64,000 nucleotides of DNA from Acidisarcina sp. GTDB lineage: Bacteria; Acidobacteriota; Terriglobia; Terriglobales; Acidobacteriaceae. Positions 39,252 to 42,370 of the stretch are shown piece after piece; within the stretch, counting starts at the first letter, position 1, and each line of letters begins with the position of its first letter. The DNA lies in assembly GCA_035539175.1 (NCBI GenBank), contig DATLIY010000007.1:558001-622000 (forward strand), written 5' to 3'. A program made the translations under genes and the position numbers. The notes beneath the pieces were generated by a model, which saw only the letters and a list, made by a program, of their open reading frames with translations, ran no database searches and had not been told where the DNA came from.

Positions 39252-40181
39252 CTACCGTGGGAGCGATTGCGTTTCCCGGGGATTGGTCGTGTAGTAGCCC
39301 GTCCGATGCCGCACGTTGTAACCAGTCCCCTCCGGAGCCTTCACCGATACCTCAACCCTGCGGAAGGCTCCGTCCGCCACACGATGCACGGGATAGTAGC
39401 CCAGCAGGTATTGGGTGCGCAGATCGTCGGAGATCTGGTCAAAAGCCTTCTCCATATCCATGCCCTCTGCGTAGTAGTATTTGCCGCCCGTCTCTTCCGA
39501 GAGCGTAATCATGGCATGTTCGCCTCCAAGGTCGCGCCCCGCGCTGGCTGCAATCGGCACATCGATGATGCTGTACACCATCACCTCGGAGCGCAAAGCC
39601 TGCTCCAGAGCCTTGGCATAGTCCACCCCGTTCACCGTATTTCCGCCGTCTGAGATGAGGACGAGCACCTTGCGGCCACTTCTCCCCATCAGGTTCTGCG
39701 CGGAGAGGTACACCGCGTCATAAAGCGCCGTTGCCGGCCCCATTCGCAGGTTCTCCAATCCGCGATCGATACGACCTACCTGGTTGGTAAACGGAACCAC
39801 CTCGCGAACATCGGAGGAAAACTCAATCAGCCCCATCTGGTCCACCGGGCGCATCAGCGCATGGGCAAAGTGCCGCGCCGCCTTTTGTTCGAGGGGCAGA
39901 TCCTTATGCACGCTACCGCTGGTGTCGATGGCCAGCAGGATGGCAAGCGGCATCTCCGATTGCCGCTCGAAGACAGCAATCTTCTGCGGCACGTGATCCT
40001 CGGTGAGCGAGAAGTCCTCCTTCTGCAGACCACCCACAACCGCGCCGTGAGCATCCGTCACATTCACGAAGAGGTTCACCAGGTGGACATTGACGCGGAT
40101 CGTCGTCGATGAGGTGCCCTCCTGAGCCGCCAGAGGCACCGTCGCGATGCAGAGAATCACGGCCCACAGGCAGAACCTCAT
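39252..40181 (-). CDS. Secreted VWFA-related protein of the acidobacterial type
   Basis: The 309-residue protein starts with a signal peptide (MRFCLWAVILCIATVPLAAQ), then a beta region (TTIRVNVHLVNLFVNVTD), a von Willebrand A domain with the MIDAS metal site DTSGS, and VLISDGGNTVNG. The match is to the VWFA-related family found mostly in Acidobacteria, whose function is not known. The ATG at 40181 overlaps the moaDE stop (ATGA), so it is translated from the moaDE message. The frame upstream of 40181 lies inside moaDE and is not used. Confidence 0.88.
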   Translation of the reverse strand: MRFCLWAVILCIATVPLAAQEGTSSTTIRVNVHLVNLFVNVTDAHGAVVGGLQKEDFSLTEDHVPQKIAVFERQSEMPLAILLAIDTSGSVHKDLPLEQKAARHFAHALMRPVDQMGLIEFSSDVREVVPFTNQVGRIDRGLENLRMGPATALYDAVYLSAQNLMGRSGRKVLVLISDGGNTVNGVDYAKALEQALRSEVMVYSIIDVPIAASAGRDLGGEHAMITLSEETGGKYYYAEGMDMEKAFDQISDDLRTQYLLGYYPVHRVADGAFRRVEVSVKAPEGTGYNVRHRTGYYTTNPRETQSLPR

Positions 40182-40954
40182 TCGCTCATTGCTCCGCTTG
40201 GCTGACTTTTTATCTGCCCGGGCACGATACTGTCCGGAAATGGCTCGCCCGCAACCCACACCGCGCCGTCCTCAAAGAACTCCTTCTTCCAGATGGGCAC
40301 CGTGCTCTTGAGGGTATCGATGAGCCAGCGGCAGGCGTCAAAGGCGGCGGCACGATGCGCGGAGGCGACCACGATCACGACGCTCGTCTCCCCCACCCCA
40401 AGCTGGCCCAGCCGATGAACGACCGTAACATCGCGGATCGCGAATCGCTCACAGGCTTCGGCGGCAAGCTTGCGCATCTGTTCGATCGCCATGGCCTCAT
40501 ACGCTTCATAGACCAGGTGGAGGGTGCGCCGACCGCGAGTATGGTTCCGCACGATGCCATCGAAGACGACGACCGCACCATCCTCTCCCTGCCGGAGAGC
40601 CTGCGCCAGCGCTGCGGTATCGATGGGCTCGCGCACCAGCGCGACGTGCAGGCCCCGTCCGCTGCCACCCGAAAGTCCGCTGCCGCCCGGAAGTCCGCTG
40701 CCGCCCGAAACTGGAGGCAGCAAGGCAATCTCATCGTCCTCTGCAAGTGCCTGGTCTGCCCGCGCGTACTCCTGATTGACCGCGACGGCGAGAGAATTCC
40801 AGAAACCGCCCTGCTCCGGCGCGACAGATCGATAGTGGTCCAGCAGCGTGCGGACCGTCGCCCCCGCGGGCAGAGATACCGCCTCTCCCTCGCGATGAAA
40901 AACGTCTTTGAGTGCGCCGAAATAGAGAACGCGTACCTGCATGAAGAAAAGCAT
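40178..40954 (-). CDS. Fused molybdopterin synthase (MoaD-MoaE)
   Basis: Residues 5-85 form a ubiquitin-like MoaD (VRVLYFGALKDVF to LLPPVSGG); residues 100-250 form MoaE, with PIWKKE holding the catalytic Lys pair. MPT synthase puts two sulfurs into precursor Z; the sulfur travels on the thiocarboxylated C-terminal Gly of MoaD. Here that Gly-Gly is internal (84-85) and repeated at 90-91 and 96-97 by a 6-residue linker repeat. In the mycobacterial MoaX fusion, cleavage after the MoaD Gly-Gly is needed for activity. The ATG at 40942 (MQVRVLYF) is a possible start too. The VWFA gene overlaps its end. Confidence 0.92.
   Translation of the reverse strand: MLFFMQVRVLYFGALKDVFHREGEAVSLPAGATVRTLLDHYRSVAPEQGGFWNSLAVAVNQEYARADQALAEDDEIALLPPVSGGSGLPGGSGLSGGSGRGLHVALVREPIDTAALAQALRQGEDGAVVVFDGIVRNHTRGRRTLHLVYEAYEAMAIEQMRKLAAEACERFAIRDVTVVHRLGQLGVGETSVVIVVASAHRAAAFDACRWLIDTLKSTVPIWKKEFFEDGAVWVAGEPFPDSIVPGQIKSQPSGAMSE
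40657..40710 (-). repeat. Three tandem 18-bp repeats in the MoaD-MoaE linker
   Basis: Three contiguous 18-bp copies (40657-40674, 40675-40692, 40693-40710), each one or two bases from the next, encode SGLPGG/SGLSGG-type units. The period is in frame and each unit ends in Gly-Gly like the tail of free MoaD. Confidence 0.95.
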
Positions 40955-41637: not shown

Positions 41638-41719
41638 GGAGAATAAGCAAAGATTGCCATTAAGAATTAAGCAAAAATCGCATTAATGGTAAAACGTGCC
41701 GTGCTACCATCACGTTCGC

Positions 41720-42370
41720 ATGCACAGCTTAAAATCTTCTCTCTCATCGGCAGGCTTGATTCTGCCCCGTCCCGTCCTGCCCCGTCCCGTCCTGTCTCGT
41801 CTGGTCCTTCTGGGCCTGATCTCGCTCTTCGCCCTGCCAGCGCAGACTCCAGCCCAGACGACGGCGCCGGCACCGCATCGATCCACCACCCATCGCGCCA
41901 CCGCGCAAAGGCGATCGGCGAGCGCAGCAGCCAAGTCAACTCAATCCACGGCTGACGAGATCAAGCTGCCCGCCTCCATTCCTGCGGCACAGGGAACGCT
42001 GCACACGGAATATGCCCTGCGCTACATTGACGTCGTGGCAGGTACAGGAGCGGCTGCCGAACCCGGGATGATCTACTTCGTCCACTACACCGGCTGGCTC
42101 TATGACGGCACCAAATTCGATTCCTCCGTCGATCGCGGAGCACCGATCCAGTTCCAGCAGGGGCAGCACCGGGTCATTAGTGGCTGGGATACTGGGTTTG
42201 AGGGCATGAAGGTGGGTGGTAAACGCAGGCTCTTTATCCCCTACCAGTTGGCCTATGGCGACAGGGCAAACGGCCCGATCCCGGCGAAATCCAATCTGAT
42301 CTTCGACGTGGAGCTGGTAGACGTGAAGGACCCGAATGCCGCACCAGCGGAAAACGCCCCTGCAAAGTAG
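41720..42370 (+). CDS. Secreted FKBP-type peptidyl-prolyl isomerase
   Basis: The 216-residue protein has an FKBP domain (about 95-205) with VHYTGWLYDGTKFDSS, WDTGFEGMKVGGKRRL and LIFDVELVDV. It catalyses proline isomerisation in protein folding. A signal-like N-terminus with repeated PRPVL units and a Thr/Ala/Gln-rich linker precede the domain, so it is probably exported. ATG 41720 was chosen; GTG 41696 would add 8 residues. It converges on the 98-residue hypothetical gene 10 bp away. Confidence 0.9.
   Translation: MHSLKSSLSSAGLILPRPVLPRPVLSRLVLLGLISLFALPAQTPAQTTAPAPHRSTTHRATAQRRSASAAAKSTQSTADEIKLPASIPAAQGTLHTEYALRYIDVVAGTGAAAEPGMIYFVHYTGWLYDGTKFDSSVDRGAPIQFQQGQHRVISGWDTGFEGMKVGGKRRLFIPYQLAYGDRANGPIPAKSNLIFDVELVDVKDPNAAPAENAPAK
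41765..41807 (+). repeat. 15-bp tandem repeat in the FKBP signal region
   Basis: Two identical copies of CCCCGTCCCGTCCTG (41765-41779 and 41780-41794) and a third degenerate copy code for PRPVL-PRPVL-SRLVL in the export signal. Confidence 0.85.

Follow-up and report, generated by a model that had tools for sequence, protein, structure and literature searches.

In Mycobacterium tuberculosis, the MoaD-MoaE fusion MoaX is reported to be cut between Gly82 and Ser83 and to be inactive in its uncut form, the substitution G81A blocking the cut and the G82A protein still being cut; MoaX is also reported to show an odd band when produced in E. coli (PMC4326299). These properties make MoaX a proper precedent for the locus analysed here, as the preliminary description of this DNA had proposed. 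In Deinococcus radiodurans, the peptidase DRJAMM is reported to cut the MoaD-MoaE fusion (PMC8832034). In Haloferax volcanii, HvJAMM1 cuts SAMP1-MoaE exactly after the Gly of a ubiquitin-like (Ubl) end with the sequence VSGG, and in vivo cutting was not seen, in the available parts of that account, when GG or VSGG had been deleted (PMC4443979). Diglycine was, on the other hand, reported to be dispensable for the cutting of linear fusions by HvJAMM1 (Hepowit 2012, as cited in PMC8832034). The capped carriers PtmS2 and PtmS3 (with PtmS1) and QbsD are described as having residues after GG that a JAMM must remove (PMC6006322). A study of 2006 proposed that fused MoaD is freed by JAB peptidases, and its listed operons include one of the ThiS/MoaD-E1-JAB-cysteine synthase kind from an acidobacterium (PMC1779556). 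Natural Ubl-MoaE fusions have been mentioned for Fibrobacteres/Acidobacteria (PMC4443979).

The gene analysed here lies in a 64,000-nucleotide stretch of DNA (the window, taken at its full length). Its product has the same domain order as MoaX and, as in MoaX, a Gly-Gly (GG) at the MoaD end that is followed by Ser. The two systems differed in that moaD and moaE also exist as separate genes in M. tuberculosis, whereas the fusion was the only MoaE match in the genome from which the window comes (the source genome), and in that a linker repeat is not described in the available text of PMC4326299. The source genome resembled D. radiodurans, as reported, in having a single fusion and a JAMM; the D. 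radiodurans JAMM cuts the fusion, whereas action of the source-genome JAMM on its fusion is presumed. The source-genome JAMM also differed in adjoining CysM-like, CysO-like and ThiF-rhodanese genes, a cluster of the type that PMC1779556 lists as an operon from an acidobacterium. The H. volcanii Ubl ends in VSGG as the window MoaD does, but the linear fusion used there was a laboratory construct of two proteins, SAMP1 and MoaE, that have separate genes in that organism, whereas the window fusion is natural. As with PtmS2, PtmS3 and QbsD, the residues after GG would need to be removed from the window MoaD; those proteins are free carriers whose described caps measure one or two residues, whereas the window MoaD carries a whole partner domain, and caps in relatives of the source genome were of 1-29 (CysO) and 1-48 (ThiS) residues. 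Neither the repeat reported below nor capping of the kind reported below for Acidobacteria was found described in the papers that the literature searches listed, although a description may exist.

The fusion gene and its 18-bp repeat

The MoaD-MoaE fusion gene (molybdopterin, MPT, synthase; 40178..40954, minus strand) translated into 258 aa and matched Pfam ThiS (9.5e-15) and MoaE (2.5e-39) in a single open reading frame (ORF), both domains sharing one frame with no internal stop; the fusion recognised in the preliminary description was thereby borne out. The MoaD (ThiS/ubiquitin-like) domain comprised residues 5-85 (40700..40942, minus strand; PF02597 at residues 9-85; AlphaFold), and the MoaE domain comprised residues 102-238 (40241..40651, minus strand; PF02391 at residues 107-217; PDB match 9jbd_A). 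The best PDB match of the fusion was the same 9jbd_A, a chain named MoaX. AlphaFold2 predicted both domains with high confidence; over residues 1-80, in the MoaD part, block means were 89-97. Both Pfam cut-offs were passed, although the matches to TIGR01682 (moaD; 61.4 bits) and NF007959 (moaE; 101.2 bits) fell below the curated NCBIfam cut-offs (66.15 and 175, respectively), and equivalog membership in these two models is not claimed for the fusion. The start codon of the ORF is uncertain: an alternative ATG at residue 5 (40942) lined up with the starts of relatives in the alignment, and its use would lower all residue numbers by 4.

Separate moaD and moaE genes, for which a search had been suggested along with the fusion, were not recognised in the source genome. 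The fusion was the sole MoaE match, with no second MoaE, and the two ThiS-domain matches besides the fusion, neither of them recognised as MoaD, lay in a CysM-JAMM-E1 cluster in one case and were ThiS-like in the other.

Three 18-bp tandem copies were found at 40693-40710, 40675-40692 and 40657-40674 (minus strand) by TRF, shuffles and pattern scans. TRF counted 3.0 copies of the 18-bp unit (40657-40710; 91% matches) and gave them a score of 94, the highest among its 37 rows for the window. In dinucleotide-shuffled versions of the 64 kb the maximum TRF score was 66 (0/60 attained 94), which rules out a chance origin of a repeat as strong as this one. A scan of the 3.92-Mb genome that allowed up to 2 mismatches (<=2) located the unit at the three repeat places and at one 2-mismatch site elsewhere; the unit with 0-1 mismatch was confined to the repeat, and a dispersed element was rejected. 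The repeat was in frame, its copies encoding VSGGSG, LPGGSG and LSGGSG and differing at three codon positions (V/L, S/P and a silent GGC/GGT). The three GG were at residues 84-85 (GG1; 40700..40705), 90-91 (GG2; 40682..40687) and 96-97 (GG3; 40664..40669), all on the minus strand. The repeat is thus real, and the score, the shuffles and the translation agreed with the three in-frame copies and the GG positions of the preliminary description. A further tandem repeat, of a 5-bp/15-bp CCCGT type, was present at window positions 41762-41801 inside the 5' part of ORF 41696-42370, which by eye looked FKBP-like.

The MoaD end and the linker in relatives

All 76 positions of the ThiS profile were matched, the last of them at residue 85, and residues 84-85 were the final matched positions of both PF02597 and TIGR01682. 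Matches of the MoaD chains 2q5w_D, 5mpo_A and 1vjk_A stopped at query residue 85, which corresponded to the last residue of each chain. When window MoaD residues 1-85 were aligned to 260 loci with GG not required, GG was present at 84-85 in 258/258 loci with a MoaD match (187/187 distinct sequences), L168 and L177 being the two loci with no MoaD match. Invariant columns were absent between 85 and 125 in a 46-row alignment, whose rows had been picked by PPV[SC]GG and thus all carry that motif by selection. The end of the ThiS profile and the alignment of the 260 loci identify GG1 as the conserved C-terminal GG of MoaD and place copies 2 and 3 in the linker. Judged by profile and alignment, copy 1 is therefore not linker, its GG being the canonical MoaD end, and the extra copies are copies 2 and 3 only; the earlier reading of the repeats as linker held for these two and failed for the first.

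The linker (residues 86-101; 40652..40699, minus strand) was unconserved and predicted to be disordered, with pLDDT < 50 at residues 84-98 in the AlphaFold2 model. The genus-mate (G001; loci L006 and L035), which was the single other genome of the genus compared in a sample with one genome per species, had VSGGSGSLANVALVGEPID at this place: the VSGGSG start was kept, one GG was present, the repeat was absent and the sequence was 36 bp shorter, with no counterpart of GG2 or GG3. The fusion loci sampled were the best-scoring matches of one search, the best 80 of 381 of another, and 20 chosen genomes. The junction pattern was matched by 232/265 loci and yielded 166 distinct junctions including that of the window; it required PP..GG and cannot itself show conservation of GG. 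Linker length, which is approximate because it was counted from a MoaE motif with a constant offset, was 1-44 residues in the 165 other distinct junctions (median 10; middle half 7-15) and 4 residues in the genus-mate; the window linker had 16 residues, and 41/165 others were at least as long.

Further GG occurred in 13/165 other linkers, compared with 17.2 +/- 3.1 in within-linker shuffles, and family-wide selection for extra GG was ruled out on this comparison. Two further GG were present in one other linker (L155, SAEGGEVAGGVR). Tandem peptide repeats were found in 12/165 other linkers, compared with 4.8 +/- 2.0 in shuffles, of which none (0/300) reached 12. Linker repeats of 12 bp that were unrelated to that of the window occurred with 5.6 (L170), 3.2 (L149) and 3.6 (L033) copies; the L170 repeat had a TRF score of 99 and was free of GG. 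Because tandem repeats were in excess, and because unrelated repeats were present in other linkers, slippage appears to be a usual route of change in these linkers. A moaD with a stop ahead of moaE was observed at L158-L161, L164-L167, L217, L235, L237, L246 and L262; split moaD/moaE loci look like fission within the linker, in a family that commonly has the fusion.

Cleavage of the precursor and the role of the copies

The source genome had one Prok-JAB match (PF14464, 83.4 bits), located outside the window, with an intact motif (HSHPDHPAQWSVTD) that reads as HxHx7SxxD, the JAMM motif as printed in PMC8832034. The JAMM gene was flanked on one side by a PALP-family (CysM-like) gene and on the other by a ThiS-domain (CysO-like) gene, beyond which came a ThiF-rhodanese gene; these genes were grouped at L186:2393-5407 on the minus strand of the source genome. 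Among 256 good genomes, JAMM and MoaD-MoaE matches, the latter counted alike whether fused or split, occurred together in 245, MoaD-MoaE only in 3, JAMM only in 4 and neither in 4 (Fisher 1.3e-5; table made by hand, with two of the four 'neither' deduced from totals), an association that is weak and is confounded by relatedness and assembly gaps. Two good genomes had the fusion with no JAMM detected (G174, locus L206; G376, locus L253), and a third genome (G203) had a putative match. Loss of JAMM where moaD and moaE are split was ruled out: the genomes of 13 unfused capped MoaD all had a JAMM match, and genomes with split genes therefore provide no negative control.

By analogy with MoaX, HvJAMM1 and DRJAMM, and with the intact JAMM gene and the conservation of GG1, the fusion is probably cut after Gly-Gly. 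The gene product would be a MoaD-MoaE precursor of molybdopterin synthase that is most likely cut once, after residue 85 (GG1), by the JAMM metallopeptidase whose gene lies outside the window. Cleavage would release MoaD for adenylation and thiocarboxylation; the linker, copies 2 and 3 included, would remain attached to MoaE as a floppy N-terminal tail. Slippage would have duplicated 18 bp around the GG codons, and the duplications would have been tolerated because the sequence beyond GG1 is hardly constrained. The repeat is most likely recent slippage that is neutral and that copied the GG codons by accident. Taken together, a slippage-made repeat in a precursor that JAMM cuts once after GG1, with no role for copies 2 and 3, is considered probable. 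Several points count against it: GG, Ser and Gly were unchanged in the three copies, which fits selection too, the three differing positions being too few for a test; the L155 linker had two further GG; HvJAMM1 has been reported to be able to cut linear fusions with no diglycine, so that JAMM may read something other than GG; and JAMM was not detected in two good genomes with the fusion (G174 and G376).

The preliminary description had raised a selected set of cut sites or simple slippage. If the linker had been selected for processing at multiple sites, several GG would make cutting faster or more reliable, or would give alternative C termini of MoaD. This would agree with the Ser or Pro that preceded each GG as at the MoaD end, with the presence of GGSG in every copy, and with the L155 linker and its two more GG; it is nonetheless quite unlikely, since GG1 alone was conserved, the genus-mate was free of the repeat, further GG were not enriched in the 165 linkers and the repeats of other linkers were unrelated. 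A cut at GG2 or GG3 would moreover make MoaD 6 or 12 residues longer, whereas the residues through GG1 are conserved in place, and MoaD so extended would be expected to function poorly. Simple slippage fits better than a linker selected for several cuts.

Lengthening or flexibility could itself be what matters, with the Gly/Ser copies giving JAMM or MoaE room and GG being incidental. The unit was rich in Gly and Ser and the linker was predicted to be disordered, but linker length appeared to be loosely controlled, ranging as widely as it did among the relatives, with 41/165 linkers at least as long as that of the window and a much shorter one in the genus-mate, and this explanation is unlikely. 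A fusion that is functional uncut, with every GG unexposed, is very improbable: uncut MoaX and uncut SAMP1-MoaE are reported to fail to restore function (PMC4326299, PMC4443979), and the source genome had a JAMM gene and lacked another MoaE match. With accidental duplication by slippage as the preferred explanation, the repeat looks to be of little weight by itself, the motif having been copied and the function not; it is a warning against counting motifs.

Capped sulfur carriers in Acidobacteriaceae

The CysO-like protein of the source genome ended VAGG-LDLEAVSI. Searches of 80 genomes gave CysO matches in 62 and ThiS matches in 73, the genus-mate having no CysO match, and the best 30 loci of each were compared (CysO, L266-L295; ThiS, L296-L325). 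Unconserved residues beyond GG were present in 30/30 of the best CysO loci of Acidobacteriaceae, 29 of them with tails of 1-29 residues and the remaining one with 391 more residues that ran into an apparent E1 protein; a JAMM motif was present in the same locus for 24/30. Residues beyond FVGGG, likewise unconserved, were present in 29/30 of the best ThiS loci of the family.

The 187 distinct MoaD comprised 172 fused to MoaE, 13 unfused that carried 2-20 residues beyond GG, and 2 free; an initial division gave 170 in which MoaE followed in frame, 15 in which a stop intervened and 2 free, and L191 and L221 of the 15 were reassigned as fusions by eye. An unconserved tail after VSGG was thus present in 13/15 distinct unfused MoaD. 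The free GG ends, at L175 (G020) and L183 (G080), are counter-examples to capping; G020 had no JAMM match and was 76% complete, and G080 had a JAMM match.

In the rest of the phylum, 25 sampled ThiS-domain proteins were compared, from 29 new loci in which MoaD, ThiS and CysO were mixed and some of which came from near relatives: 18 ended exactly at Gly, 4 had short tails and 3 ran more than 40 residues further. Proteins ending at Gly were thus 18/25 elsewhere in the phylum, the other 7/25 having residues after it, vs 1/60 among the CysO and ThiS loci of the family taken together (Fisher 7e-12, which ignores relatedness). It is conceivable, and is put forward tentatively as somewhat short of probable, that nearly all Ubl sulfur carriers of the family (MoaD, CysO and ThiS) are made as capped precursors, such that a single JAMM peptidase or a few of them would gate molybdenum cofactor (Moco), cysteine and perhaps thiamin synthesis; the protease would read no more than the fold and the GG end while the rest drifts, giving random tails, fusions, fissions and repeats, and the three GG would be a snapshot of that drift which could give alternative MoaD ends. 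If true, family-wide capping would be a bacterial parallel to the processing of ubiquitin precursors, with a protease gating several sulfur pathways, and would explain the freedom of the linker to change. Capped carriers that need a JAMM are already known; the capping of all three carriers of one family looks unusual. A CysO-like domain that continued in frame into an apparent E1-rhodanese protein, with its GG internal, was observed by eye at L282, L344 and L346, the latter two loci belonging to another family of Acidobacteriota.
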